DNA of 64,000 bases from Paramacrobiotus metropolitanus (Eukaryota > Tardigrada > Eutardigrada > Parachela > Macrobiotidae): NCBI RefSeq assembly GCF_019649055.1, contig NW_026570281.1, positions 620,001 to 684,000 on the forward strand, read 5' to 3'. Below are positions 7,891 to 62,975 of the stretch, piece by piece (position 1 is the stretch's first letter; every line of letters begins with the position of its first letter). Position numbers and translations under genes: made by a program. The notes under the pieces are model-generated. The model was given only the letters and a program-made list of their open reading frames with translations. It searched no databases and was not told the DNA's origin.

Positions 7891-10800
7891 ATGAAAGGGA
7901 GCGGCGCGGGGGAAGCGGTGGCTGTGGCAGGAATGGAGCGGCGACTGTCAGCGGCCGACAGCGAAGAAAGCTCGGCGCTGCAGCTGCAGATGGGCATTCT
8001 GCGCCGCGAGCTGGACCGCGCCAACAGCGGCCACGCCGTCAGCGTCAACGGGCCGCATCCGCGACTGACCAATGGCGTGCAGGCCTTGGACGACGGCAAA
8101 CTGACCCTCCTCGCACAGGATCTCAACCGCGCTAATGAGGTACACTTGTTGAATATGGCTGAGTTTGATTCGGACAAACATTCTTCAGAAAGAAATAAAA
8201 AACAATAACTGCGGTAATTATGTATGCATATTGAAATCCTGATATATTAAAATTTTGATCGTGTGTAATTGTGATGTTGTTTTTGAGTCATCTAGAATTA
8301 CGTAATAATAAACCTAAAAGTTTTGCAAAGTTTTTTCAGTGTCGATGCGGTGCGGCAAACTTTACTTTATTACTGTATTTAAGTGTCTGTGAGTACAAAA
8401 AATGTATGTTACGTAATGCTAAATTTTCTACACCCAAAAATTCTTTAAAATTTAATCAAAATCGGTTGTGCGTCAAGTGCCCGCTGGGCGTGTCATGTCG
8501 CATGATTCATGCGACAATGAATGGCGTAATCGGTAATTCTAATGGTAGTCGTATGCTAATTGGTACTGCTTTATTTAGCGAGCAACCGCTGCAGAGTACA
8601 AGATCGCCGAATTGCAGCAGCAACTGACCTCGCTACAGCGCCAACTCAACAAAACGCAACAGGACGCTGCCGCCGGCGACGGAACCTCCCGAGCACAGGT
8701 GAGAACTTACTTGTCTCCCATAAGTATCAGCCCTAATGTTAAAAAAAGAATTCCAAGCCGAAGATGCGTAAAGCGTCTAGTCATACCCGGTTTGTGAGCG
8801 TCGTTCTTTTGCTCACGATTCCATCTCAAACAAGCCATGAACTTTGGGTAGTTTTTTGCTGGGTCGGCAGTTTTTTGGCCGGCTATGTTGGCAAGCGGAA
8901 GTCAGATGAGGCATTGAGGCTTTTTGGGTCAGACTTCTTGTTTCGCCATTCACCAGCATATTTGCTTAACTTGCCGGTTCAGCCGCACTTTCACTCGTTT
9001 CCGCTTCCCTTTACAAGTTTCATAGCAGCAGTTTCTCGCAGTACATACTAATTTTGATGCGTGCAGTTATTCTGTGCACTGCACAAAATAACTGGATTAA
9101 AAAGGTGAAATACCATTTATTCAGGTCATTCGATTTCGATTTCAGATGTTTCTTACTTAAAGTAATATTTGCACAAATGCTATAGTAATGTTATCAATGT
9201 TATGCTGTTCCTACAATTAAGTATACTACAGTTCTAAAAATATTCTAAATTATTCTAAATTACTGTAATTCTAAAAATATAAAATTATTTAGCTTAATTA
9301 TTATGAATACAAGTACGCGACGCAGAGTTGGCAAAGCGCTCGTACGTCGTACACATAAAATCAAAATAAAGGCTTAAGAAAAACCAAGATAGGCAGGTTA
9401 ATAATTAATATCCGTAACGCCAGATATTTCCTTGGGAAATTAGCCAATACGAAACACAGTTTGAAATTCCGAAAGCCTAGCTTATCATTAGCTTGCGATG
9501 CAGTTACTAGCAATTATTGTAGAATCTGAGAAGAAATAAGCGCATGAAACGCCTGTTTACAAATAAAAGCAAGTAAACAAACGTGCGTCTTTCTCGACAA
9601 TTAAATAATTGGTTTGACGAGAAGGAGCGCGGCCGCAGAGATTTGTTTGTTATTGTGTGTTGATTGTTGTGGATGTTTACAGGCGGACGGTATTGCGCGG
9701 CTCCGTGATGAGCTGGAGCGGCTGAAGAGTTCCTACCAGGCACAGGTGAGCGCGTTGTCGCCGCCGCTTCTTTTGTCTCCTTCTTAATTGTAAAGCCTGC
9801 TTTGTTGACCGGCAGTTCAATCGGCTGGAGGACCAGTTGTCGCGGCTAAGCTCCCAGAATGCACTGCTGCTCAGTAAACTCGATCAGCAGCGCGATTACG
9901 ACACCGTCAAACACCAGCTCAAGTAAGCACGGACGCACTGTGTATCAGCGGTTACCGTTGGTGACCTTTTCACTACATCTTCAGACCCCATCAATTTGGT
10001 CATTTTTATTTTGCAATTGAATATACAAGTGTTTGCGTGCAATTCGAAGCCAAATTTTGTTTGAATATTTTGCGATTACGAAATTGTTTAAGTGCGCATT
10101 GTAACTCGCTTAAATAATATATGAATATGACTTTATTGTAGCTTGCTGAAATCGGGACGGTATCAGGAAGACAACCTGTCCAATGGCCATTACGAATCTG
10201 TTATGTTGGCGCGCAATCGACGCATCCAGGAAGCGGAAAACACGGCAATCCGCGGACGCGAAATGGACTATGCCGGTAGGTTAACTCCTCTTTGCATTGC
10301 GTAGTTCAGGTTGTTAATAATGAGGGATATTTATACAGGCATTCGCCGGCGCATTACCACCAATGGCGGCACCAACGGCATGGGCGGCTACAGCCTCCCG
10401 AGTCCCCGAGGCCTCGACCCCGAGGAGCCGGAAGACCCTGATGAACTCTACTCTGATGACCTTTCCGACCTGGAATCCAACTTGACCCCGGAGATGCTGG
10501 CCAAGATTGCTGACGCCAAGAATGTCCTGCAGGGTCTCTCCAGCCGAGCGAACACCGCTTCCCCCTCGGGCGGGTCTCGCTTCATGAACACCATGCAGGT
10601 GGCCGACCAAGTCAACCGCGTCCTGGAGGAGGAGGGTATCACACGCTGCGCCCTGGCCAAATTTGTCCTCCATGGATCGTACAAGATGGTGTACGATGCC
10701 CTTCACGACCCACGACCTTGGGGCTTCCTCAACTCCGCCGGGCGCGACAAGTACCGGAAGCTGAAACTGTGGGCAGAAGACGCCCGTTGTATCAGTGCGG

Positions 10801-13027
10801 TGAAGCTGCTGCAGGTGTACTGTAAGGACCGCCGGCGCCGCGGCGACGGCAGTACGCCGCCATCCGGCTTCGAGGACGACTCCCCGACCGATCTGTCATT
10901 GCCCAAGCATTCTCCTATTCGCCGCAGGTCGCAGGCGGACCTGCTGAGTATGGGATACGAGAGTCCGGGCCGAATTATGATGCAGCCCGGGGCCATCTTC
11001 CATCCCGGAATGCGACGGCCATCCATGCTGGAGGCTTCCGAGTCACAGGCGCTGCCGGTCGCGCCCAAACGTACCTCCCCACAACATTCCGTGCCGCGGC
11101 GGACAGCTAGCGCGCTGGCGGTACCCCCTGCTCCTATTTCGTCCAGCTCAGGTAGGCTCCGGTCTCGGATTTAACCGCCACCGGCATTAATCATGTTTTC
11201 TCGATAGGTGTCTTCCGACCATCGCAGAGCTTCACGGCCTCGCCCGTCGCCTTGGGCATCTCCTTCCCCGACTATCGCAAGAATGTCCTCCATCAAATCA
11301 CCGACGACATGATCAACCAATACGACCCGCTGGACACCGACACCGTCACCCGGGCGGTGCGCAGTAAACTGAACAAATGCAACGTCAGTCAGCGCCTCTT
11401 TGGTGAGGTGGTCTTGGGCATGAGCCAGGGAGCAGTCAGCGACCTTCTCAAGCGGCCAAAACCCTGGAACAAGCTGACGCGCCCCACCAAGGAGCACTAC
11501 GTGCGCATGCAGCAGTTCCTGGAGGACGAGCAAAGCATCCCGGTGCTTCAGGCGATCCAGAACCGCGAGGATCCCGAGCGGGTGCTGCAGGTGCCGCCCG
11601 AGGAGGACGAGGAACGAGTGGATGTCCGGGACATGTGGAAGAAAGGTCAGAAAGAAGTTTACTGGTTTCTATGCGCACGATGGTCAATTTGCTGTGTCTT
11701 TCAGAAGATTCTCCGCAATCCTCTCCCAGTATGGTCAGTATTCCATCGGGCCCGGCCGCTGGTTTGGCACCGGTGCCGCCCGTCAACGAAACCATGGCTT
11801 CCGACAGTGAGCTTAGTGAACGGGAAGCCTTTCAGGCGGTGAAGGAGCACTTTGCGAAGTTCTATCAGATTCAGGATGTCTCCCGCAGCCCCATGCTGGA
11901 CACCGTCGTCGTGGCCAGTCGCATTAAGGAGGAATTGCGTGCCCGCAATCTCCAACAGAAGCTCATAGGCGAGCTAGTTTTGGATGTCGGCCAAGGTAGA
12001 ACATAGTCGATGTAACAACGGGGATAATTATATTAGCTCGGATATAATACTAATTACATGTGATGACCTTTCGCTACAATTGTCTATATTGACCGTACTG
12101 GTATTGCCCTAAATGACGAGGGTAGATGAGTAAAAAGTACTTCAGTACTTCAGATAAGTGACGTGAAGCTACATAACATTTTTGCACTTTAGGAACTGTT
12201 AGCGAATTGCTGAATAAGCCGAAACCGTACGGAATGCTGTCCATGAAGGGACGGGAAAACTACATGAAGTTGATGAAACTGCTGCAGACTGCTGAAGATT
12301 TCACACTACTGGAAGCGCTCCGCACACAAGGACAGCAAAAAGGTCAGGACAAGCTCCAATTAGCCTGTATGTACTCAGTTTGTCGGTCGTAAGTTGATAA
12401 AGTCTATGGCTGGATGATTCGTCCTTACTGCGTATCAATTATCACAAGTTAATAAGCAGCAACAGCAGTTAAAACCTCGCCAATGTGCGATTAAAATTTC
12501 ATAGCCGCAACAGAAAATCTGAAAACACACAAATCACATTTGTCCATTTAATTATAGCGACGACGAAACGCGGTCGCTCCTTCACGGACGATGAGCCCCG
12601 CGAGGAGAAGCGTTCGCGTGCCTCCCCCAATTTCAGCCCCAGCCACGACGCTGACGACGAGCTGGAGGTTGAACCGGGCGTCGACGAGGAGCCGGAAGGG
12701 GATGCGGGAGAACGAGCAGACGTGGACCGGGAAAACCAGCGCTACTACCGTGCAGCGACCGCTAAATACTCAGACGACGAGTCTACCGGCGACGGCCACG
12801 ACGACGGGCAGATGATCAACGGGGTCATCGTGCCCAAGTCGGCCATGCGGACGCCGCAGCGCAGCCACGACACAGTCATCGTGCAGCCGGCCCTGGGCGG
12901 GAAGATGTACGCCGGAGGCGGCAGCTACGAGGAGGCTCTGGAGCGCAAAGACAGCTGGGGTCTCAACGGCCGAGTGCAGCGCGACAACGACGGTGACGCC
13001 CAAGTGGACGACAAAGACTGGTCGTAG
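7891..13027 (+). CDS. cux: CUX/cut-like protein: coiled coil + three CUT domains, no homeodomain
   Basis: Ten exons: 7891-8139, 8579-8698, 9683-9745, 9816-9922, 10142-10275, 10339-11151, 11208-11645, 11705-11995, 12193-12342, 12558-13027. They join in frame to 944 codons plus stop. The stop at 7861-7863 is in frame upstream, which fixes ATG 7891. Residues about 15-220 are coiled coil and end in a segment resembling the CASP/CUX block (YDTVKHQL, then LARNRRIQEAEN). CUT1 lies at about 307-386, CUT2 at about 537-617 (GEVVLGMSQGAVSDLL, RPKPW) and CUT3 at about 705-787 (GELVLDVGQGTVSELL, KPKPY). CUX proteins are nuclear DNA-binding regulators and normally carry a homeodomain after CUT3. Here CUT3 runs into an acidic, Ser-rich tail ending in DDKDWS, with no WF-N-R helix anywhere. 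A PTDLSLPK motif (about residue 407) resembles a CtBP-binding site. The long N-terminal part of vertebrate CUX coiled coil is also absent. Family call is strong; the loss of the homeodomain is read directly from the exons. Confidence 0.88.
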
Positions 13028-22928: not shown

Positions 22929-24489
22929 TCACGCCGATTTCTTGCTGGCAGCCATCGCCTCCTTCTCGTCGTGAAACTGTATAAGTTTTTCCAGGCCGTA
23001 AAAATGTCCCCGATTGTAAAACATATTGCGCACCTGCTGCTCCGTCTTGTTCGGCAACAGCCGACTGGCGCGTCCGAAATCCTTCCCATATTCGACCAGT
23101 GAGCGCATGAACATCTTCAACTCCTCAGCATGCCATAGCAGTGTCGGCTCCTTGGTGACCTCGGTGCGCGCCTGTCCAAGCGTGTCATCCTGCAGCAGTT
23201 CATCCTGGTAGGTCTCGCGCTGCTTCTTCTCTTCCTTCAGACCCTCTTCCTGCTCCAACTGCGCCAGCTGTTCATCCAGCTGGGCCATCTTCTGACGCTC
23301 CTCCTCCAGCTGCTGCTCCAGGCGGCGTTCTTGACCTTCCCATGACTCATCCATCTCGTCGGTCTCATCCAAGCCTGCCATTTCATCATCCATAGCTTCA
23401 CCCTGCAGACACTCGGTAAATACTCAAATCATCTGAATTTACTATTTAGTAGTTAAAGGAAGAATAGAGTTAACAGATTTATTCTGTAAACAAAACACAG
23501 AAATTTCCACTTTGCGCTAACAAAAACCACACTACGATAATAATGCAGTATTTCGTAATCTTACACTTGGTCATGTAAAGATAAAAACAAAATGTCATAC
23601 ATTTTCGCTAAACTAAAATAAAATCGAAATGCCGAATGCGGGAATAATATTCCGTAAAAAAATAACTAATAATAAACAATGTCAAACTATCAGCAAACGG
23701 AGAGAAATTAACTGTCGTTACCTGACGAGCACGCAAAAACAGCATTCCCTCCGTGGATTCCTCGGGTATCTCGGTCGAAACGGCAGCGGAATTGGCCGCA
23801 TCACGAAGGATCCGCGGTCGCCCGACTGCCTTAACCGCCGCGGCCAGCGGCGCTTTGGGATCGGTCATCAACTGAGCATTAGACAATTTCCGCACCTCTG
23901 TCTCAGTGCGCGTCGTCGTCTGCAGTTTATTATTGGCCTTGTTCCGCTTGAATTCAGTGTAGTAGTGATTAATCAGCGTCTGGATGGAGTGGTTGGGCAC
24001 AAGATCCCGGATCCGCTCAAAATTCTTCCCATGGAATCCGTAACCCTGCACGAAGAGCACTTTGTCGTGCAGCGGCATCCCCTCCTGCTTGCCCACGTAG
24101 TCGTGCTGCAGGGCGGCCAGGGTGGCGTCTACCTTGTACTCCTGGAAGAGAAGGAAGGCCAGCACCTGGTCCTCGTCGAAACCCTTGCTCTTCAGCTCCG
24201 CCAGGAGAGCGGTTAGTTTCTCCGGGGTGATGGTGTCGGTGGGTTTCCACAGCGGGATCTCGTGGCGGCGATGGACGTGCTGGTAGTAGTGGTCGGCGGG
24301 GGTGGACTGGAGGGCGGGCAGTTCTGCCTGGTAGTTGGGCCCGATGAAAATCTTCTTGTTGCTGGCGTGCATCAGCGCCTTTTCCTTCGGCGCTGATTTC
24401 ATCGGCAGCGAGGGCAGATAATCCATGCGGAAAAGCTTGCTCGGCTGGGGCTTAGCCCCACGACGGTCAGATAAACTCATGGAATTCAT
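22929..24489 (-). CDS. RCOR: REST corepressor (CoREST)
   Basis: Two exons, 24489-23722 and 23402-22929, joined at phase 0 to 413 residues (vertebrate RCOR1 about 480). CoREST bridges the LSD1/KDM1A histone demethylase and HDAC1/2 on chromatin. An ELM2-type region runs from about residue 47 (IFIGPNYQAELP) to 130. SANT1 is at about 140-185 (HDKVLFVQGYGFHGKNF, then LINHYYTEFKR). An acidic, Glu-rich coiled-coil linker is at about 277-320, the part that contacts LSD1 in known CoRESTs. SANT2 is at about 343-398 (EPTLLWHAEELKMFM, then QVRNMFYNRGHF). It ends shortly after SANT2, without the extended C-terminal tail of vertebrate paralogues. Family identification is firm; which vertebrate paralogue it matches is not meaningful here. 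Confidence 0.93.
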
Positions 24490-29990: not shown

Positions 29991-32900
29991 TTAGGTTGAC
30001 CTGGCCGGCGTCCGACCGCCCACCACATCCAACACGCACTCCGGCGCCGGGAAGGACCACTTAGGCGTTCCACTACTGTTGACGTTGCAGTAGGAGATCC
30101 TGGCACCCACCAGCCGGTATCCGCCATGGCACTCGTACATGACATGTGACTTCACTCGATAGGCGCTCTTCACCGGCGTCACACGGCCGTTGGCCGGTGC
30201 TCGCGGGGCCTCACAGGCCGGTTCACAGCGCGGCGGCGGATTACTCCAGCGCCCATCCTCCCCGCAGGTGGCCACCACCGGCCCGCTGGCCATAAAGCCC
30301 TTCTGGCAAGCAAACTGCACCATCTTTCCCACCAGATAGCGCTCCGTCGGAGTCTCCAATGCCTGCCCGTTAGTCGGCACCGCTAACCCCGGACAGTACA
30401 CCGATTCACAGACCGGCACCGGCGCCGACCAGTTTCCAGTGTGGGTGCAGTGTGCGCTGTGGTTGCCGACAATGCGGTAGCCGGGAGCGCAGGTGAAGGT
30501 CACGCTGGCCTGGTAAAAGGTGCCGTTGCTGTCCAGAAAAAGGTTGGGGTCGGAGCTATTGAGGGGGGCGCACTGCACCGCGACACAGGTGGGTAGTGAT
30601 TGTGCCCATTCGCCGTTCAGCTTGCAGTAGACAGCGGCTGGTCCGACGAGACGGTAGCCGGCGATACAGCCGAAGGTCACTGTGCTGTTGAAGTGGAAGT
30701 TGCCGGTGTGTAGCAGTTGCTCGTCGTCCCATGGGCGGGGACAGTCGACGGCTACAGCCAACAAATTGTTTAATTTGTTTGGCCCCACATGTAAATAACC
30801 ATAATTCGAAATTACAAATGATAGGATCAATTTGACAAAAAAAAAGTAAATGTTGTTATCGTTGGTAATTCTGGCACTATCGATTTTAGCTCGACCCTGT
30901 CATTGTCAGTTGTTAATTGGTTAATCAATAACTTTCTTCTCGGTGCTGCGCTAAAAGCCGATTGTCAGCTGCTGATGTAATATACGGAGAAACTGTAAAG
31001 GCGCCCTGACGTCAATGGCACGCTATAAGGTTATCGATTGTGCCGTTAATGAAAATGGGAAAAGACTTCCTGCCTGTGACTTCGACGATAAAGCTGTGGC
31101 TGGTCTTGACAGGCGTTGTGCAAGTGAACTTGCCACTCTGCTCCGGCTGGATGTTTCGGATGGTTAGACGCCATTCCATCTTGTTCCGGTAGAGATTGCG
31201 CGTCCACTGCATTAGAGCGTCGCTGATGCTGATGGATTTCGACCAGGTCCATTTGGGCGGGCCCAACCGCCGCGGTTCATATATACAGCCTAAAAATCGT
31301 GCGTGCACGTTAGCCGCTTATACTCGTACATACGCGTACATAGAACAAAAACAGCCCAGTTAACTCCCGGTCCCTGCGTTAATTCTCATTACACTATCGA
31401 AAGGGCCATAATGCAATAACTACACGCGCATAACAAAGCCAATAAGCACTGGAAAACTTTGAGTTGGCTTTGTTGGACGTTGGCGCTGCGTCGATGACGT
31501 TATAGGTGTTTAAGGGGAAAAGACCGTCACGCGATGGCTTGATGCAGCAATCATCGTTAGCGAACCACAGGAATAACATGTTTACAAGTTATGCACTGCT
31601 GCGCCATTAAGCCGTCGACACCGGCTCGTTCAACGGGGTCAAATGTCGGATGATGATGATGGCAAACCGATTCTTATTTAATGTCATAAGCCATTTACAT
31701 GCAGGATACATAACGCTACTTATCCATCTAAATGTCATCGCGACTTGCGATTACCAGTCCATATACACCGGGCCATTTTATGGCATTATAGTAGAATATA
31801 AAAACAAAAAAATGTAAGCAAAGGGCATCTGTTAATAAACGTTACAACCTGAAAATGTCAATCAGCTAAAAATAATGCATATCTTCAAATATATAATTAC
31901 AAACAGTAAAATATATCTACAACGTAAGGTTTAAAAATCACATACTTCAAGTATATATGTAAAATTTAGCTGGAGGGATAAGTTAGCATACAAAGCACTT
32001 ACTGTGACCTTTACTCACCTAAATGCAGGTCAGAACCCGGGTAGACGAACAGTCTCCCATCATAATTAGGTGCCACGATGCCCTTGTAGGAGATATAGGT
32101 CAGCAGCGGCGGATACAGCCGCCCCTCCTGGACGTTGCTCTCCATAGAATCGGACAGCGGCTGACAGCTGGGCTGAGTAATCCCGGCACCACTACCAATG
32201 CCGGCGACATTAGCAGCATCCCGAAAGGTCAAGGGCTCCCACTGGCCGTTGGCGCACTGTAGCACGGCTGGGCCCTGAAAAATGTACTCGCCAACATGCT
32301 CGCAGCGGAACATGAGTCGGCCGCCGTGTGGGAAAACGGTTAGTCGGGGCGCCTGCTCCGTAGGCTCGCTGATGTTCAGGCCGTTGTAGAAAATGGACAG
32401 GTTGGTGTAGGCCGGTTGACCGGCGTCGAAGTAGCAAGATTGCCACACCGGCTGGTAACTGGGGTCGGCGCGCTGCAGCATATCCATGCGCCGGCACAGC
32501 GGTCCCTGCAAGCTCTAGGTTAGTACTATTAACAGCAGTTACTATTGTACGGGTAGTATACCGTGGTAAATATTACGGAAAATTTAAAAGTTACGTACAA
32601 GTCTAAAACAAATTGCCCGTGATCGTAATAGCAAATATGCCAAGCTACCTAAACGTATTAGTGACTGCGATTTTTTTCCCCAGATTTTGACAATTCCTTT
32701 ATGCATTAAAAGGAACCGAACTGTATGGAAATGCAATTTAAAGAACCTTATTAGGAATGCGCCATTTATATTGCCTGCGCAGTTTTATTTGGAGCACATC
32801 CGTATATTTTCCAGTTATATGCTCTATGACTGCTTTATTATCCATAAAACACAATAATTATTATAAATTTACAACAGTAGATAGAACACAACCATTATTC

Positions 32901-34695: not shown

Positions 34696-35967
34696 AATTC
34701 AACAAAAAATCCCCCGATTTATTAGCCGTAATTTTTCCATAACCATCCGCCGCACGCACTGCAGCGCATGGATCATTGCTGTCCAAATCTCGTCCGAATT
34801 ATTGTCGGCGAACGGAGAAAAATAAGTCAAGTGTCTTCAATGGAATGCAGTTAAGTGAGTCGGGAAGATGTCCCATGCATTTTAAATTCCACCACGCTGA
34901 AACGCTTAACCCGGCCCGGCTCATTTTCCAATTCCGCGTGGACTGTTTAAGCGTAAGCCCTCTAATCCGCCGCCGTTTGACAAGAAAGACAAGTTACAGC
35001 AAAAACTGCTAAATCTTTCATCAGTGCTCCTTTCAGAATCTTAATACACACTTAACTTTACTCGCTCTAGCTTATCTGATGAACAACACCAACTGCAATC
35101 AAGCGAAATGATTTTTTCTTCCGTGACATATATATACTTCTTCACGAGAATGCGAATGCGTGATTTGCATTTTTTGTCTTTTGTACTTACATTCATATTA
35201 ATATACACGGTATATAATTTTATTCCCTTATTAACATGTAATTAAGTATTAGTGGCGTTTTGATTTTCCATGATTAATTTTAGCCTGTTTAAGTTTTAAG
35301 TGATTGAATTACCAGAATTTTTATGGGTCACGTTATTTATTACATTATCAGAGGTAAATTCCTATCGCTATTCACGGCACTAATTATACAGAAGTTTAAT
35401 ATGAAACATGCGATAGCTTATGAATACGTTTCCACTGGTTTTCTTTTAATTTGGCCAGAGTACTGCATAATATGACACGATGACCTTTCGTAGAGCCGCG
35501 CACGCTAACAAATTAGCAGCATATTAATCATGAGCGACGCTTGGCAAGCCGTCCAAGCCGACACGACAAGAGCAAAATAAATCGGAAGAAGAAAAAATAA
35601 AACGGTCTCTGTATATAATCGATGGTTTGAACGGCGTTTAGTTGGCGATACTTATATATCGATGGGCGACGTGCATCCATCAACGGCGGCGGAGAACGTC
35701 GGAATGTTGGGGAAGGAGGCGATGCGTGGCATGCCGGTCAGCCGGCATCTGGATAATGGATGTTGATGGCGCTTACACGTTGGTGGCAAGAGAGTGGAGG
35801 CGGGCGTTGGAGCTGGCAGCTAGGGCGGTTGCCGAACGTTGCATAAAATCCGGAATGAGTGGTTTATGGAAAACCAGTGGTGCGCGGCGTGTAGACTGCC
35901 GTCCGTCCACCGCTGTATGTGGCACTGCTGCGATCGAGAGTGGGAGTTCGACACGTCGAGACATCCA
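34696..35967. other. Intergenic
   Basis: AT-rich DNA upstream of the Ig/CCP gene and downstream of eclosion hormone gene 2. A GC-rich stretch at about 35660-35960 contains overlapping open frames on both strands, with no splice signals or family I recognise. It borders the last exon of the hormone gene and may be its 3' untranslated region. Confidence 0.45.
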
Positions 35968-36944
35968 TCACCGGTCGGTGTTGAGCACCGCCAATTTCTT
36001 CAGCATTAGGTAGTCGCGTATCGATGAGGGATTGGTGCAGTCCGGCAAGAATGTCCCACGCTTCTGGATACAGTCGCGACTGGAATGCACAACAATCGGC
36101 GTTGATTTATGGCGACTTTACCACGACGCTTAATTTTATCTATGCATTTGCAAAATAAAATGCTAATTATACTGCTAGCTAAAGCAAGCACACGCATTTT
36201 GCGTTCTAAACAATGGAACTATTTTGGACTATTCTATTCTGAACTATGGAAATAAGCGTTATAAACAAGAGAATCTCAATTTTAATATACACCTGTTATA
36301 ATAAAGTATAGGTAATTTATGTGAACGCAAGGCGTAGCCTTTTACTTAAACATTCTGAATAAAATTATCTTTCACGTTATAAAGGGCGTTGGAGAAAGTT
36401 AAAGTGTGCAGAATTGCGTCGAATTAATAACTTCAAACCGTGCATGGTGAAGATGAAAAACCAGTAACTAGTAAAATATAATGTTACCAAAAATGAATAA
36501 TTTTATTAGGCCATGGGTTGCTAAAGTTTGAAGTACGAAACAATGGTCCAATAAACCCGGCCTTAAACTTGTTTTTAGCTCAATATTATTGTATATTTGT
36601 AATGTTCAGAATATAGTGTAATGCATATAATACAATTAAATTTTTGGTCTGATTTACCTGCATTTTCTGTGGTCGAATATATCTCCAACCAAATCATGGC
36701 ACTGTGCACAGTTAGCTGCAAACAGAAACCGCGCGATCACAGCCTTAACTCCAAAGGTCATTCGAATGCATGTCGATTACTCACTTATGCAAATGGAAAG
36801 GAGGTTGCCGGTCAGCGCCGTGGCGGCGGCGTTCTTGGTGGTGGCGGGAAGGGGCGCGGGGGCCGCCAAGCGCATAAGGAGTATCGCGGTGAGGAAAGCC
36901 ATGGTCAGCGAGGAGAATGAGAACGAGGGAGCTTGCATCAACAT
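35968..36944 (-). CDS. Eh: Eclosion hormone, copy 2
   Basis: Three exons in coding order: 36944-36785 (160 nt), 36715-36658 (58 nt), 36079-35968 (112 nt), giving 109 residues. Eclosion hormone is a six-cysteine neuropeptide that triggers ecdysis behaviour in arthropods. Exon 1 gives a signal peptide (SLTMAFLTAILLMRLAA) and a linker ending at the first cysteine (LLSICI). Exon 2 encodes TNCAQCHDLVGDIFDHRKC. Exon 3 encodes SRDCIQKRGTFLPDC and PSSIRDYL. These are the family landmarks: NCxQC, a Gly-x-x-Phe spacing, CxxxC, and PDC followed by an SI..(F/Y)L helix. All six cysteines are present. None of these exons is long enough to stand out as an open frame. It is head-to-head with copy 1 and has identical sizes for exons 1 and 2. 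Confidence 0.9.
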
Positions 36945-39822
36945 GACGCCGGCCGTCCAACGGGCAAATCAAGTTATAGTCGCGGCAAAGGTCAGCACGG
37001 AAATTGTCTGTCAAAAGTGCAAATACAGCCCATAAATAAGGACCGACATAATATTATGTACTGTACGCGCATACGTTGGCTGGCGAGTGCGCGCGCGTCA
37101 AGTCAAGCGTTAGTCCCGATAAAAAAAGCTCCGTCTGATCCCGAGCGGACAGGCAACTCATGCAGTGGGTTAATGTAGCCTGCGGCTGCCGGCTGATCGC
37201 CGATTAAGCGGGAAGAAATTAAAAGGGAGCGGGCATTTAAGGCCGTTGTGTGCGCGCGCCGGTATTAACCATTTCCGAGCACTTCGCACCGGCCATTAAA
37301 AAGCCGTGCACAACCGGTCTTCAGACTGCAACGATGCAATTGCTATGCGCGTCAACGGTAATTGACCAATCACAGGGGAACAATCAGCCTGATATCACTC
37401 TCTATCACTGCATACACATTGCAAAAGCGCTGCGCCCTTACCTGTATGTAGACGTCAAGTGAAAGGTCATCGAGCGATGTACTAAACTCAGAGGTCACGG
37501 ATTGGTACTTGTTAATGCTCACAGCCGAGAGATGCGAGGAAATCAAAAGTGATTAAGCGGTAAATGTTGGTGCAATTGACAGCGCTAATGCGGTTTTTAT
37601 AGGCGTGACAAATTGGCGAAATGTAGTATGTGTGTACGATACATGTGTGGATGATGATTTGACACAGAAATGTATTTTCGCATCGGCGCGCGCGTGAGTC
37701 AGAATTATGGCGGCAAACCATAAATGACGATGCCGGTAGAACTGTGCACCGAAATATCCCGATTGTGGCTAATTCGGGGACAGTGGGCGACACGTGGGGA
37801 CGCACGGCCAGGGCCAGGCCGAAGTACCGGCCACGGCGGCGGCGGTTGCGGTGGCGGACAGCACGCATCCGCCGCCGACAATTATAATTAGCCGGCCCAG
37901 GCATCGCCTGCTCCATTTCGCTGAAATGGTCCGGAAAAAATTAGCAAAAAATGTGTGTGTGCTTAACATTGCATTTCGTCCAACTCAGCCACATGTATGT
38001 AGTTCAGATTTCGGCAGAAAAATGATGCAAGAACGGGTTGGAATGGTGTGGCTTTTCATTCTTCCCATCCTCCGCCGGCAGTTATGTGGACTTGTTTCTG
38101 CAGTCAACAAATTACGCATCGTTTTCGATGGGGTTTCAGGTTTACGTGTACGGTGACTAGTAATTTTTTCAAGATGAGATATAAGGTCGATAGATTGTTT
38201 TCACATTTTCTACATTAATTATAATTCATGATGGTAACAAACTAAGGTTTTGGGCGGCCCAAGTGCGAGGGCGAGGCCTTGCATGTGAGCCGTGACGGCA
38301 CATGGCCATGCAGGGCCCGCAGCAGGGAGCACCTCGCTTTTACTCGAGATAAGTGGGGTGCATTTGATATTCCCGCCCTCGTACACAACACATAATTGGT
38401 ATTGCTGTTTGGGCATGTATTGGAATACTATGCAACATTAAATTTGTAATACATAATTTTGATTAATTGGCCTGACGGCTTTAGTTGAACGCAAACTTTG
38501 CGGTGTACGTTATTATTATCGTCAGTTCCTTTATAAACCACTAATTATTATAATGTATAATTATCATCCTTGTATTCTCGTATCTGTCTATCGAGTGTTT
38601 TTTTTAAGTTTGCTCACAGCATAATAATTATATGGTAGGGACCGAAAAATAAAATACGAAAAATTCTGATAATTTCTATCCTCAAGTAATTTTGATTTAG
38701 ATGCTTGGCCGGCATGGTCAGAGGCATTACGTGTAACCCTTATATAATAATTGCCAAATTCCATGCCCAAAATAAAATCTGCTCGGCGTCTCCACAGGAA
38801 TCCAATTTGTATCATACCATTGGGACATAATTGAAACATTCTAAATTAAGGGTTTGAATTGAGAATAAATCTTCTATTTTTACTAGCAATTTGTTCCTTG
38901 CGCAATACAACGTTTGTGCACGATTATGGATGGTCAGGATGGATGCAGGCCGCACGTGATGGATCGCCGAAATTAAATCGTAAATCGACTAAAAATACCG
39001 CCATCCGTTGTACGAGTATATTTTTAGCCACTTTAACGAGCGAGGCTGTACTGAGTATTTGCGAGACGATGTGGATGGGATGGATGTAAAAAATAATTTA
39101 TTATGCGGTGTACTGTCCAGGGCATTTTAGTCACGATATATGCGCACTGTAATTTGTAAACATACCATCAATTCATCGATTTCATCCTAACTGATTGTGA
39201 AAGCTCATGTCAAATTGTTTTTACGATCGACAGCGTCCAACATTGCACTTAATTGTCACACTGTGCTTAACGAGCTGTTATGTGGACGTTTGGTGATATT
39301 TCATGCGCAGAGCAGCAATAACTTAAATCAATCGATGAGCGATAATAAAATAAATAGTCAACCTAAAAACATTAACAGATACAAAAATCAATTTCTGGTT
39401 AAGGGAAGCATAGTTCTGATTCTTTTAACAAAGTTTTGATAGTGGTGAAAAATTGCAAACAAGTAATAATTAATGCCGGAGATAACTCCCGCGGGAAGAA
39501 CAATCCGCCGCGCAACAGCCACATTTACAGCAACGTGGGCATCACGCAACAGTATTATTACAGACATAAAACGCTGTGCGGAGTCGCCGGAGTGCGCATG
39601 TCTTTGTCTGGTGAACAGTATCACTGACGTCATGACGGTCACGTTTGACAGGAATCCCTGTGGTTTGATCGGCCATAAAATACAGTCATACATATTGCCG
39701 TTGGTGTATCCGCGGGAATGTTGTTGCGATGCAAATCCAGCCAAATATTGCCGGGAAATACGTTAATGTGGTCAAGTTGTCAAATTAATTACGACAGATT
39801 TTCACGAGCTGCCTGGGCTGAA
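36945..39822. promoter_or_regulatory. Shared upstream region of two eclosion hormone genes
   Basis: About 3.1 kb separates the divergent start codons of the two hormone genes. No coding exon is supported inside. Patches of GC-rich DNA (37050-37110, 37790-37900) alternate with AT-rich DNA. It must contain both promoters. Whether they share enhancers cannot be told from one sequence. Confidence 0.4.
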
Positions 39823-39830
39823 TATAAATA
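39823..39830 (+). promoter_or_regulatory. Possible TATA box of eclosion hormone copy 1
   Basis: TATAAATA lies about 260 bases upstream of ATG 40090. Its position would allow a leader of about 230 bases. Similar AT-rich words are common nearby, so confidence is limited. Confidence 0.3.
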
Positions 39831-40089
39831 AAACCACAAGCCGATGGGCTTCCAACAAGTTTCTTATTTTAACGATTCATTGGCAATTTGGAATAGCGCA
39901 GTGCATGACCTTTAGTTTCCGCAATTCATGCACATGGCTTAACGGACGCCTTTGTAAAAAACACTCATCTTAGTGAACATTTGCTGCATAATTGTCTTAC
40001 CGCTGTACCTATCAGCGGTGCTACGAATATAAGTGCTTGCTACACTCATTTTTTCTTGTGAAAGTTAATCCGATCCTGTTAAATTAGCC

Positions 40090-40972
40090 ATGCTGCTGAT
40101 GCTGAGTTACAAAGGCACGGCAACTGGCTGGATGATCCGACGGTTGATCATTCTGCAGCTTATGCATTACGTACTATTTATGGTGTGCGATGCAACATCC
40201 GCAACCGACGCAACAGGAATCCCCATCAACAGTATTGCCGTCTGCATTAGTAAGCAGTACTGTACTATAATCATTTGCTTTGGATTCTAATTACGAATAT
40301 ATACTGTACGGATTGCTGGTAGTTTATATTGCAATAGGTACACGCTAATAAAGGTAAAATTTATTAAAGCTAATAAAAGTTAAGTAGCTAAGTTAGTTTA
40401 TTTTGTTCTGACTACCGTGAAAAATTTTTGGCTACATGGTTGACCTTTAACTCGCTTAATGTTCAGTCGTCAATTTGTCAGATGACCGCACTTATGATAA
40501 CATGCTAGGTATTTGGAATTTGCACAGGCTTTATGGTTAATCCTATCAATTTTTGTCTGCAGCTAATTGTGCACAGTGTCATGATCTAATTGGCAACATC
40601 TTCGACCATCGCACTTGCAGGTATGCAATGCTGTACAAATTCTATTGAGTTATTATATCTACGTATAATAATTATATATATGGAGAATTTCAAATATAGA
40701 TACCTATATGCAGTACCTGTAACTATCAAATAATATTATGCTACACAGCGGATAGCCCAAGCTCATAGCGAATGCAAGATAAAAAAAAGGTGACCGTTGA
40801 CTGTGCACGCAGTAGTACGCTATGTAAGTATGAATTGTACGTTTACAGCAAGGACTGTGTCCGGCGTCGGGCGTCCTTTCTGCCGGACTGCACGGACCCC
40901 AACAGTATTCGCGATTATCTGTCACTCGGCTCCAGTCAGCCCAAGATCAATCCGCGTTTCCGCACACGCTAA
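40090..40972 (+). CDS. Eh: Eclosion hormone, copy 1
   Basis: Three exons, 40090-40249 (160 nt), 40563-40620 (58 nt), 40849-40972 (124 nt), giving 113 residues. Exon 1 carries a hydrophobic signal segment (RLIILQLMHYVLFMV, after an N-terminal extension that could be bypassed by starting at the Met of MIRRL) and ends with SIAVCI. Exon 2 encodes TNCAQCHDLIGNIFDHRTC. Exon 3 encodes SKDCVRRRASFLPDC and PNSIRDYL plus a short basic tail. The six-cysteine pattern and the PDC...SI..YL ending match arthropod eclosion hormones, secreted neuropeptides that act through a receptor guanylyl cyclase to drive moulting behaviour. The C-terminal tail after RDYL differs in sequence and length from copy 2 and is the most divergent part. 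Confidence 0.92.
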
Positions 40973-41981
40973 TTCCATTGACGGTCAGTGTGCTGGCTGT
41001 TACGTACGTTTTGTACTTTGCCACTTGCCAGCAACCATCTTGCCAATGTGATGTCGTCATGTGCGCTTTCTGGGCACTTGCAGCAAATGTGCGTGTATAG
41101 ACGAAATGAGAAACTGCGTAGGCTTGCGGCGATTTTGTTCCCGGGAACGGTTACGTACTCTTACGTTCTTTTGCTTTTCCACTAAGATTGTTCCAATATT
41201 TAAATTCAATTTATTATGCGGGAATTACAGCCGACTGCTGGTTAACTGCATTGACGTTTTTTATGCTTTCTTTTCTGACATAAATATGTTGCTTTTTTAC
41301 TCATTGTGAGGTTTAACTATGTACGTCTTTGCAAGTGCAGTCATGTGGCATGCGAGTGTTCTAGTGACAGTTGCAATCTGCTTCAGACGAAATAAAATAA
41401 TCTTTAAAATTATTAACATACAATAATGGCGGCGTAAATGACTGTAGCCAACATCGCAATACATTATATTTATGTACGGTGCATGCAGCTTGAACCACGA
41501 CCCTTAATACCAAAAGCGGGGACAAAACCAAAATAGTTGGAGGGTGCATTATAAAAAAAACGCGGGATATTGGCACATTGCGTAGTTTCGGTTTTGATTT
41601 TTTTCGGTTTGTATGTGTCACGAAGGTACATCGGACATCACTTAGTCCTCTGTCTACACAGTTAGTATTCAGTCACAAAACATCGACATTACTTCAAAGC
41701 ATCAGTTGTTCCTTTTTCAGTGTATCATTACTTTCTACTTGTAATGGACGTAAGTCACGTGATGCAATTTGCGCAATGTTACAATTTGCAGTCAACAAAG
41801 CAGGAGTTCACAGGATGCGCTACGCAAACGCACAGTTTGATACGCTGCAAGGTTGGTGTCCTAACTGCGACAATACACAACAGTGTATCTGTAGTAGATT
41901 CTGTACATATATACGCTGCAGGTGCAGACAAAATCTGATCCTTGTTGGGGCTAATAACAAAACTTAACAATGCCGATCATA
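40973..41981. other. Convergent 3' space
   Basis: Between the stop of eclosion hormone copy 1 (+) and that of BBS5 (-). Several short open frames exist but start at non-ATG codons, have no splice context and match nothing I know. Confidence 0.5.
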
Positions 41982-44900
41982 TCATAGGGGATTCCACAGA
42001 TCAGCCAGTGTCATTCCGTTGGGTGGCTCCTCGATGGCCAGACCGATCTCGCGGGAGAAGATGATGCGGCGCTGACCTTTCCCATTATCCAGGTAGTACA
42101 ACTGCAAGTACATGAGTACAATACATATGCAGAGTACCACCACGTACAGGATCATAGCTTTGTCAATATAAACAGACGCACTATCAACTTCGGTTGACGA
42201 CAGTTTTTCTTACCGCTAGTGCGTCGTTCTTGGGCGTATTGTCCGGTTCGAGATGTTCGCTGGGAGCTTTCAGGACGTCGTTCAGACTCTGCGCATTGAG
42301 CTGTCATACGAATTACGATTGATCCAACAGTCGCGTTAGAGTACCTTACTTTACTTTTTTTAGTAGGATTAATATTGTACATACGAGCATTGGTCTGGTA
42401 CTAATTAGTTATTGATATGATTATACCTGGTCGGTTTTGAGCTCCTTCAGGCCGAAGATGGGCGATTTGGCGAAGAGCCGGTGAAGATTCTGAATCTTTA
42501 ACATGGTCGCTTGCAACTTCTCCGGCGGATCAATCTGTCAAAACATTCCATTATGCCACTGTTCCTTTAAGTCCAACTAACGCAGCATCATCAGCCAACA
42601 AGAGTAGGGTAGATTACTGAAGGCTAACCCACCCGGAATCCCAGATTGCAGGTGGCGCCGTCAGCGTAAGTCTCCAGGACAACGGCCGGCCCGTACTTGG
42701 TCTGATTTGGTCGAATCAACTTCTGTATAACATGCGTAAATAAAAGTAAGTTCTAATTTATATTAAAGTAAGTTCTAATTTATATTAACAGAAATCGCAG
42801 CCAATATTCATCTGTAGTCGGCTTAATGTTTTTATCCAGATGACTCACTTTAACAGTGTTATTAACTACAGGGTATGATTACGCATTAAAATGAGTATGT
42901 CTTAGGTGGAAATGCCGGCAAGAAACGTGGTCCTTATTCAGACCATCGTCCAGCAGCACTGAGCCCTGTGGTAATCTTCCGAAATTACGCTGCCACCGGA
43001 AGGAATGGAATATGGCTCTTGATTCGTGACAATATTAATAAGAAACGGCACGGATGGCAACAAATTTCGAAGCAGTGCGCTAATTGGCACAATGGTGGCA
43101 TCTGTAATGAGGTCGGGTCCAACTGAAACATGCAAAAACGAAAACCTACCCTGCTGGTAACTCACTCATTGGAATCTCTAGTCGCAGAAATGACTTAACC
43201 CATGTTAGAGGATGTTTTACCGGGGGTTAATCCAAACAAAAAGTCCAAAAAATGCCCCGTGACAGGATCGAACTGTCGACCTCAGGATTATGAGACCTGC
43301 GCTCTACCGACTGAGCCAACGGGGCTTGAAATCTTGGCGGATGTAAATCGTATATCGAAAAGTACGAGCAAATAGCATAAGTTGCATAAGAAATACTGTA
43401 CGTAGCGTGCATGAAGCACTCGCAGATTAAAAAAAGGCAGATACATGTACATGTGGTAGCGGGTGATGAGATAAACAGTTTACATTGCAGTGGGAAATCA
43501 GACCGCTTAAATGGAAGATCGAGGACGAAGATCGAGGGATAGCTAAAACAGGGATCCCCATGCACACTCAGTGGCACTCACATACTAATTACGTTGTTAG
43601 GGAAGCCCTACCACGTGGCCCGCGTTTCTCGTGCCTCGTTTCTCAACGTTTTAGCTAAACCACTGTGTCATTACGTACAGATATTTAGACAATTGCAACT
43701 CGCGTTTGGTCTTGGTCCATATACAGATATAGTCCATACGTTAATATAGTTTAAGGAACATAAACTGGATGCCGGTCTAACTAATGGCCTTTGTTTGTGC
43801 AGTTTGATAAGTTATCTATATAATTACTGACCACGGCGAGGAAGGGAATGCTTATGTTGTAATTATCGTTGATGGCGGAGTACCAGACCAAGCGGACGTT
43901 AGTGATGTGCATGCCGCCCAGGACGCCGGTGTCGCTGGTCAGATTGAAGACGCCCTCGATACTGTCGAAGAGCTGCTCATCCGGCAGCAGCTTCAGCGAG
44001 CTGCCTTCGATCACTGCGCCGCGTAGTTTCACCTCGCGGTACAGCCGCGATGAATCATATGACCTGATCAACAACATGCATTGGCTCTTATTATTTGAAC
44101 TGGTCTCTCAAAAGGTCAAGTGGATGCGCTGCACCTGAACACGGAGTTGACCACCGCGTACAGTTTGGCACTGCCGGGGATCTGCAAATTGAACTGCATG
44201 CCAACAAAACAAACAACCGTGAATAACGCAGAAACGGGGTTGGGGCAAGCAGAACACGGGCTTGTGTAATCAAGCGAGAACGCTGTACCAACGAGGAGAA
44301 GATGAACTCGAAGCGAGCTGTGCTGCATTTGGCGTAAATATATAGAGACTCCACCGATCCGCGCATTTTCTACAAAGAAAATACAAACGCATCCTTTGTT
44401 AATGTACTTTATAATTTTGCTGCGCCACTGCTGCGGTATTCGAGCCGGTAAATTACATAGAAAGGGTCGAAATGCTACGGCTTACTGATATTGTCGTCCG
44501 GACGGAAACATTGCTGATGCAGTTATATCCCAGGGCTGCATCGATCGCACAAGAACAATGTAATTTTTATACGATACATACTTCGTACACATGCATCTGT
44601 AGCAAATTATCATAATTCATTTATATACAAATTTTATGAGAAATGAAAAGCATAGTGTATTTAAAGCATAGCCTTTGCAAAAGCATAGTTTATTTCGATT
44701 TTGTAAACTAAAAGTGTGATGATTTAAGCGTAAGCGCAGCAACCTGCAGGCAAATGCGATATACCGTATGACTGCTCAATAAAGAAACATACAAATATTA
44801 ACACGGGTCAATTGCAGGGATATCCAGATCAGCCGGAGATTAGTCACGTACAGTGTACCTACAAAGAAACAACGGGATAAACATATTTGAATATATTCCA

Positions 44901-61238: not shown

Positions 61239-62975
61239 ATGGCAGGCGCTCTGATTATTCTGGCACTTTCTCTTGTGGTGGCGGTGGTCGGTAAGTACTG
61301 CAGCTGTATTTACAACATAAGCTGAGATGCAGCAGCGTGACTGTGCGCGCGCGCCCGTTTTACTTGTACAGAGTAGTTTTGATCACATTTAAATCAGTTA
61401 GCATTAAAAATTAATATTATTTCGATTTGGACACTACAGAGTAACTGTATGTATTGTTGCAGAAGTGCAGGCCAAGCCGATGTGTCTGTGTCCGGCGCTG
61501 TGGCGACCAGTCTGCGGTGAGGACGGGACCACATACAGCAACGACTGCCAGGCCAGATGCCAAGGTCAGTCCACTTAACGGGATTGGTCGGTACAAGGTA
61601 CAAACTATCGGACTTTCATAAATCCAGCATAATTTACTTCCGCGCAATCCCAAATCATTTCTGGCGTTGCGATACGACATTGCGTCGCACCGTTTTTTCA
61701 TATATATTGCTGTATAACTGCCTGTACATGTAAAAACTATAATATTATCACTCATCACATCCGAATACTAAAATACGGATGTACGTATCTGTATGCTGAA
61801 CCTTCTACGCATTGGTTAGGAGTAAGCGTAGCGCACGAGGGTCACTGCGGCAACGTACAGCCCAGGAGCACTTTCTGCACCCTGCAGTACGATCCGGTGT
61901 GCGGCAGCGATGGCAAGACCTACAGCAACGACTGCTTCGCCCGGGCTGCCGGTATGCCGGCATCGCTTCACATTTCTTTGACACACAATAAATTAAGACG
62001 TTCTAATGATTCAGGAGCCCATGTGGCGCACAAAGGCGAATGCGCTACTGCCAGGGCCAACGATATCATGTGCACCATGGAATACGCGCCAGTCTGCGGC
62101 ACCAACGGTGTGACCTATAGCAACCGCTGCTTCGCCCACGCGTCCGGTGCCAACATCCTACACAGTGGCGCTTGCCGAGGCGAGACCAAGGGTGTCTTCT
62201 GCACGCTGGAATGGGCTCCCGTCTGCGGAAGCGATGGAAACACCTACAGCAACCGTTGCCACGCCGGTGCCGCTGGTAAGATAAACAGAGCGGGAATATT
62301 CCTGAGGCAGGAATATGGCCTTACCAGTCGCGTATTTGTAGGCGTGCCGGTGGCCCATACTGGAGAGTGCCGGGAGGCGGTTATTTGCACCATGGAGTAT
62401 GCACCCGTTTGCGGTAGCGATGGAAACACTTATGGCAATCGATGCACTGCTAATGCTGCCGGTACAGTAACCATTGGCAAATTCAATAAGTATACATAAT
62501 CTGTTGATTATAAGACAATTTCATGTAGGAGCAACAATTGTTCATGATGGTGAATGCCGGGAAGCTGTTATCTGCACCATGGAATACGCGCCCGTGTGCG
62601 GCAGCAATGGGGAGACCTACAGCAACCGCTGCCTGGCTGGTGCCGCCGGTACGGAGATCCTTCAAAAGGTCACTGGATGTTGTGTCTAATGATCGAGTTA
62701 ATGTGGTTCTAGGCGTAGCAGTGGCACACAACGGCCCGTGCCGCGAACCCGTGATCTGCACTATGGAATGGGCACCCGTGTGCGGCAACGATGGGAACAC
62801 CTATGGCAATCGATGCGCAGCCAATGCCGCCGGTATGCCCTTTGCAGGAACTATTCATATCTGATTAAATAGCAATTATGCCGAGTATGATCAGCAGTGT
62901 GCGAATATGTGGCAGATTATGTCAAGTAGTTGTTCGGCTGCAGGTGTTGAAGTGGCTCACTCCGGAGAATGCTGA
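61239..62975 (+). CDS. Secreted seven-domain Kazal-type protease inhibitor
   Basis: Eight exons, all introns phase 1: 61239-61290, 61463-61564, 61820-61951, 62015-62275, 62342-62461, 62529-62648, 62713-62832, 62944-62975, giving 312 residues. Exon 1 is a signal peptide (AGALIILALSLVVAVV). Seven Kazal domains follow, each with PVCGxDGxTYxNxC (or G-N variants). Kazal domains insert a loop into serine proteases and block them. The likely P1 residue, second after Cys2, is Ala in domain 1, Leu in domains 2 and 4, and Met in domains 3, 5, 6 and 7, which suggests chymotrypsin- or elastase-like targets. Domain 1 has six cysteines; domains 2-7 have only four. Introns fall at the same place inside each domain, after AAG. 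Three exons are exactly 120 bases. The last exon carries only the end of domain 7 and stops right after its final cysteine. Confidence 0.92.

Follow-up and report, generated by a model that had tools for sequence, protein, structure and literature searches.

The 64,000-nucleotide stretch of the genome of the tardigrade Paramacrobiotus metropolitanus analysed here (hereafter the window; positions 620,001 to 684,000 of the forward strand of contig NW_026570281.1, assembly GCF_019649055.1) contains two genes of the eclosion hormone (EH) family, denoted EH-A and EH-B, that lie head to head on opposite strands. Ecdysis, the defining trait of Ecdysozoa, has eclosion hormone among its key signals. 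Both are real, complete three-exon eclosion hormone genes, and their exons, along with the spacer between them, are located as follows (window coordinates; nt, nucleotides):

36785..36944, minus strand: EH-A exon 1, 160 nt (spliced model, GT-AG), with the start codon, the hydrophobic N-terminus and the first core cysteine
36658..36715, minus strand: EH-A exon 2, 58 nt, the TNCAQCHDLVGDIFDHRKC region; the Pfam Eclosion match extends over the spliced protein
35968..36079, minus strand: EH-A exon 3, 112 nt, stop codon included
40090..40249, plus strand: EH-B exon 1, 160 nt, with the start codon, the hydrophobic N-terminus and the first core cysteine
40563..40620, plus strand: EH-B exon 2, 58 nt, the TNCAQCHDLIGNIFDHRTC region
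40849..40972, plus strand: EH-B exon 3, 124 nt, stop codon included
36945..40089, no strand: spacer between the EH-A and EH-B start codons, 3,145 bp, the presumed site of both promoters

The two genes (35968-36944, minus strand, and 40090-40972, plus strand, respectively) are divergently oriented, with start codons 3,146 bases apart. In the spliced models, the introns, all of the GT-AG type, are 69 and 578 nt long in EH-A and 313 and 228 nt long in EH-B, and the products consist of 109 and 113 amino acids, respectively; in both genes, intron 1 is in phase 1 (after the first codon base) and intron 2 is in phase 2 (after the second). Exon 2 encodes peptides that differ at three residues. The equal length of exon 1 hinges on the choice of the start codon, methionines being present at positions 1 and 15 in both proteins; by hydropathy, the most hydrophobic stretch covers residues 13-24 in EH-A and 19-30 in EH-B. 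A preliminary description of this DNA, made from its letters alone, had proposed two six-cysteine hormone genes on opposite strands, and the spliced models, Pfam Eclosion scores and cysteine spacing all agree with this proposal. The particulars given there, namely start codons about 3.1 kb apart, a 160-nt exon 1 and a 58-nt exon 2 in both genes, identical intron phases, and only a few residue differences in exon 2, likewise hold in the spliced GT-AG models, and the tails that follow the RDYL motif are indeed different, their alignment being no better than that of shuffled sequences (387 of 500 shuffles reach the score).

When the entire genome (169.8 Mb, 533 contigs) is searched at the protein level, nine exon matches emerge at five EH loci. 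A second protein search, with the most distant copy as the query, adds a single new place, C159:231109-231282 (E-value 0.035), which was rejected as a sixth candidate given that its translation lacks the EH motif. Five should be taken as the minimum number of EH genes because scoring in these searches is limited to the best candidates, so that a missing match is no proof of absence. In addition to the head-to-head pair, the family includes three genes for which spliced models were obtained:

C61:701509-702665, plus strand: EH-C
C61:718289-719728, plus strand: EH-D
C49:586942-586099, minus strand: EH-E

The genes EH-A to EH-D all belong to one segment of about 64 kb, C61:655968-719728, on the contig that includes the window, and EH-E is encoded on another contig. 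Exon 1 is 160 nt long in EH-A and EH-B, 154 nt in EH-D, 145 nt in EH-C and 130 nt in EH-E, and exon 2 has a length of 58 nt in every gene but EH-C. EH-C, which has the longest C-terminal tail among the five copies, is devoid of intron 2, the exon 2 stretch being joined in frame to exon 3; this looks like intron loss via a cDNA copy.

All five spliced proteins pass the curated cut-off of 25 bits for the Pfam Eclosion model (PF04736), with scores of 63.3 (EH-A), 60.8 (EH-B), 42.9 (EH-C), 61.4 (EH-D) and 46.5 (EH-E). The cysteine spacing is 3-2-12-3-10 in every copy, and the same spacing can be computed from the printed cysteine positions of both EHs of the shrimp Litopenaeus vannamei, LvEH I and LvEH II, which share the six cysteines with the proteins described here (PMC11641175; this and the other publications are cited from parts of their text). 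When the genome is searched in six frames with Pfam models at E ≤ 0.001, neither EH-A nor EH-B is listed and EH-C is the only member of the family to be recovered, which bears out the earlier remark that the exons of the pair are not obvious as open frames. Among solved structures, a sequence search started with one EH protein identifies no match at E-values up to 1, and a profile search produces seven matches, all with E-values of 0.56 or worse, which are taken to be due to chance.

The short single exons, unlisted in the genome-wide Pfam search, might be viewed as chance look-alikes, or the pair as an assembly duplicate of one locus, given that some other contigs of this assembly resemble duplicate haplotypes. 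However, the spliced proteins match the Pfam model with E-values of 1.7e-17 (EH-A) and 1e-16 (EH-B), as many as 43 of the 138 core nucleotides are different between them, and each locus came up once in the two protein searches. In practice, these observations refute both versions of this explanation.

The preliminary description further interpreted EH-A and EH-B as the products of an inverted duplication. What stands of this claim is that the genes belong to the EH family, lie head to head and share intron positions and phases; what is not borne out is a simple inverted pair, given the existence of five genes, the near equidistance of EH-A, EH-B and EH-D, the undecided tree tests and an inverted match limited to 74 nt. 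With three more genes in the picture, the original interpretation of the pair is reduced in scope. In the 46-residue core, EH-A and EH-B share 35 identical residues, compared to 34 for EH-B and EH-D and 33 for EH-A and EH-D; EH-C shares 27-29 residues with each of these three proteins, and EH-E shares 25-27 with the other four. The identity of EH-A and EH-B is the highest of all by one residue, which is one of the points in favor of the alternative under which these genes are true sisters, derived by inverted duplication of one ancestral gene and kept head to head through shared enhancers or a divided expression pattern. The divergent orientation across the 3,145-bp spacer is compatible with the same scenario.

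The phylogenetic evidence does not single out this arrangement. Three arrangements of EH-A, EH-B and EH-D were compared, with EH-C and EH-E placed together on the far side, and none of the three is rejected by the approximately unbiased (AU), Kishino-Hasegawa (KH) or Shimodaira-Hasegawa (SH) test, on either protein or DNA; the AU p-values are 0.36-0.65 for protein and 0.058-0.69 for DNA, with a warning in the test output that 1,000 replicates are few for the AU test. The protein test slightly favors the grouping of EH-A with EH-B, as expected for sisters, but the DNA test prefers EH-A with EH-D; the bootstrap proportion obtained by the RELL method (bp-RELL) on DNA is the sole measure that excludes the grouping of EH-B with EH-D. 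In the unconstrained DNA tree, EH-C and EH-E are set apart from the other three genes with a support of 88. In the unconstrained protein tree, EH-C joins EH-D with a support of 45 (the other support value is 39) and EH-C and EH-E are not set apart, so that the rooting assumption rests on DNA.

Genomic DNA comparison leads to a similar picture. EH-A and EH-B match over 74 nt at 78% identity, a stretch that consists of exon 2 and its splice sites, but the matches of EH-D to EH-A (68 nt at 82%) and to EH-B (67 nt at 84%) are equally good; weak matches of 47 and 55 nt link EH-E to EH-B and EH-D, respectively, and the remaining five pairs of EH genes produce no genomic DNA match. A blastn search at E ≤ 0.01 detects a single match between EH-A and EH-B. 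Within 35500-41500, the inverted-repeat arms comprise the one 74-nt pair over exon 2 and the splice sites and nine others of 16-23 nt, and there is no substantial stretch of inverted similarity beyond this part of the coding core, contrary to what a sister pair would lead one to expect. An inversion thus occurred somewhere in the history of these genes, although not necessarily as a single event that gave rise to the EH-A/EH-B pair.

The exon sizes carry little additional information on this point. With an invariant cysteine spacing across the five proteins and conserved intron positions, exon 2 has hardly any freedom to deviate from 58 nt, and, being of this length in all genes but EH-C, it is no mark of a sister relationship between EH-A and EH-B. 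The equal size of exon 1, which would fit a sister pair, is at best weak evidence of one because the N-termini of the two proteins align no better than shuffled sequences (437 of 500 shuffles reach the score). When the N-termini and the tails are aligned for each of the ten pairs of EH proteins, the lowest shuffle counts are 33 of 500 (the N-termini of EH-A and EH-C) and 38 of 500 (the tails of EH-C and EH-D), and none stands out among twenty tests.

The upstream regions were compared by counting shared words in 1-kb segments against 100 shuffles each, in twelve tests. EH-A and EH-B have 136 common 7-base words compared to a shuffle mean of 121.6, an excess in the direction expected for a sister pair that 15 of 100 shuffles equal, but the count of 8-base words is close to the expectation (38 compared to 36.5) and that of 9-base words is below it (6 compared to 10.0). 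Taken together, these results make a sister relationship of EH-A and EH-B a minority possibility, to be kept in mind but not favored.

The word counts also bear on the suggestion in the preliminary description that the two copies share enhancers. A single 8-base word is common to the upstream regions of EH-A, EH-B and EH-D (2.0 expected), and the largest deviations are seen for the 7-base words common to EH-A, EH-B, EH-C and EH-D (7 compared to 3.7; 8 of 100 shuffles) and to all five genes (3 compared to 1.0; 11 of 100 shuffles). Accordingly, no convincing common upstream element emerges among the twelve word tests, which degenerate sites or a distal enhancer could escape. Alignment of the two halves of the spacer for inverted similarity with lenient gap costs gives a score of 989 compared to a shuffle mean of 935, which 9 of 100 shuffles reach, and is read as no signal. 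The start codons, at 3,146 bases from each other, are farther apart than the distance of less than 1,000 bp by which bidirectional promoter pairs are defined (PMC2670823), with the proviso that this definition concerns transcription starts, the distance between which may be shorter. Thus, the upstream and spacer sequences, in what is a weak test, give no clear sign of shared enhancers. The differences between the N-termini, tails and upstream regions suggest instead that each EH copy might be regulated separately rather than by one shared switch.

The core regions bear the mark of selection on the protein. The Nei-Gojobori dS (synonymous divergence) is undefined because of saturation in all ten pairs of EH genes, and the YN00 method gives values only for EH-A and EH-B (dN, the nonsynonymous divergence, of 0.237 and dS of 1.321), with none for the other nine pairs; for this reason, neutral simulation was used instead. 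In each of the ten pairs, none of 2,000 neutral simulations, run with an equal number of random nucleotide changes, reaches the observed core identity; for EH-A and EH-B, the 35 observed identities compare to a simulated maximum of 28. Among the four-fold degenerate sites of codons that agree in their first two bases, 4 of 9 are different between EH-A and EH-B, and more than half are different in each of the other nine pairs (only 7 to 10 sites per pair). These comparisons suggest that constraint has acted on both EH-A and EH-B through most of their history, the current function of the two genes lying outside a pairwise test.

Copies of EH genes do decay elsewhere, e.g., the second EH of the beetle Hycleus is probably no longer functional (PMC6585902), and one might envisage that EH-A or EH-B has been recently disabled or is not transcribed. 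Against such a recent loss, neither gene shows damage to its reading frame, splice sites or six cysteines, and the core conservation is beyond the range of the neutral simulations; accordingly, the loss of either copy appears quite improbable.

Building on the established gene structures and family membership, the five loci (four of them in about 64 kb) and the constraint on the core amino acid sequence, EH-A and EH-B are very probably two working members of a five-gene EH family that would have arisen through ancient local duplications, with an inversion in at least one of these events. Several observations weigh against this interpretation. The putative signal peptides, represented by a hydrophobic N-terminal stretch in all five copies, were judged on hydropathy only. 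The selection test, being pairwise, is blind to a recent loss of one copy. A TATA-like word is found within 400 bp upstream of the start codon in EH-B and EH-E and is missing in EH-A, EH-C and EH-D. Finally, a search for CCAP, the partner peptide of EH, with the Pfam model detects two matches, neither of which is over the cut-off, although short peptides split between exons are easily missed.

By analogy with the characterized members of the family, each EH precursor would lose its signal peptide, and the core would fold as a six-cysteine hormone with three disulfides. The hormone would then be released from neurosecretory cells around the moult or hatching and would activate a receptor guanylyl cyclase, with a resulting rise of cGMP in the targets of the ecdysis cascade. 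The potential receptors are numerous. The genome contains at least 200 guanylyl cyclase exon matches, a count based on the scoring of 150 out of 849 first-look candidates, as well as 86 ANF-receptor matches; when the top 97 cyclase matches are set against the top 67 ANF-receptor matches, at least 12 cyclase places have an ANF-receptor match on the same strand within 12 kb upstream. Receptor guanylyl cyclases thus appear to be expanded in this genome. At C65:179706-182294 and C474:6557-9141, the scores of the cyclase and ANF-receptor matches on one contig are equal or close to those on the other, which suggests a haplotype left uncollapsed or a very recent duplication.

A more elaborate scheme can be proposed in which the EH cluster supplies duplicate ligands, with the core constrained and the ends free, that are tuned to different members of the expanded receptor guanylyl cyclases, and cis-regulation shared by the head-to-head pair ensures that two hormones are released together at the moult or hatching. 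This scheme is a long shot.

In favor of the main interpretation, EH and a guanylyl cyclase receptor have been reported in tardigrades (PMC6660194), and hatching is stated to be accompanied by upregulation of EH and CCAP (PMC10924213, with reference to Zieger et al. 2021). Bursicon, a further component of the cascade, has been reported to be absent from tardigrades (PMC6660194). In Hypsibius exemplaris, 20 hormone-receptor orthologs are significantly expressed only in the 3-day egg, and the majority of these are atrial natriuretic peptide receptors (PMC6925440).

The interpretation of EH-A and EH-B as members of an old five-gene family can be compared to the EH complements of other animals. 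Five EH paralogs are known in H. exemplaris (PMC10924213, citing Koziol 2018 and Zieger et al. 2021), that is, the same hormone family with the same number of genes as in P. metropolitanus, so the number five is not new. Smaller sets have been described in arthropods: two EH cDNAs in L. vannamei, compared to five genes here (PMC11641175), and, according to work cited in PMC11641175, three EHs in Aedes aegypti and likewise three in the pea aphid. Most beetles (PMC6585902) and the centipede Strigamia maritima (PMC4244043) resemble this tardigrade in having more than one EH gene but possess two copies rather than five; in S. maritima, two genes for EH guanylyl cyclase receptors have been reported as well, and, according to the same authors, most other arthropods have one EH. 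LvEH I and LvEH II are found in different tissues and peak at different moult stages (PMC11641175), and therefore provide a precedent for divided EH roles. The linkage of four copies, a head-to-head EH pair and the loss of an intron in EH-C were not met in the literature searched, which is no proof that they are unpublished; specifically, the EH text of PMC4244043, as far as it was available, describes no head-to-head pair. The EH family finding alone changes no general idea, but exact models for five EH genes, four of them linked, provide a basis for asking whether hatching, moulting and other tasks are apportioned among the copies.

Between EH-B and EH-C, the genes recognised in the window, namely those for tRNA-Met, a putative cyclase, an Exo_endo_phos2 protein and a Kazal protein, are unrelated to EH. 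The tRNA-Met gene (43253-43325, minus strand) is located about 2.3 kb beyond EH-B. Beyond the window, still between EH-B and EH-C, there is a cadherin-like open reading frame with a score below its cut-off. In the stretches beyond the window, the survey of neighbors covered 8 of the 33 listed open reading frames of at least 110 residues, two of the 8 being past EH-D.

In a search with the Lipocalin_7 and Lipocalin models for a heat-soluble (lipocalin-like) protein of the tardigrade type, an ordinary fatty-acid-binding protein was found, plus one further match of 27.7 bits compared to a cut-off of 23. Elsewhere in the window, two adjoining open frames at 10305-11842 (plus strand) encode one CUT DNA-binding domain each. 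At 22929-24489 (minus strand), an open reading frame with an ELM2 domain is followed by one with Myb-like matches under the cut-offs, an order of domains known from CoREST-type corepressors. Two further open frames contain tandem domains, one with four Sushi repeats (29991-30899, minus strand) and the other with four Kazal-type inhibitor domains (61633-62499, plus strand).

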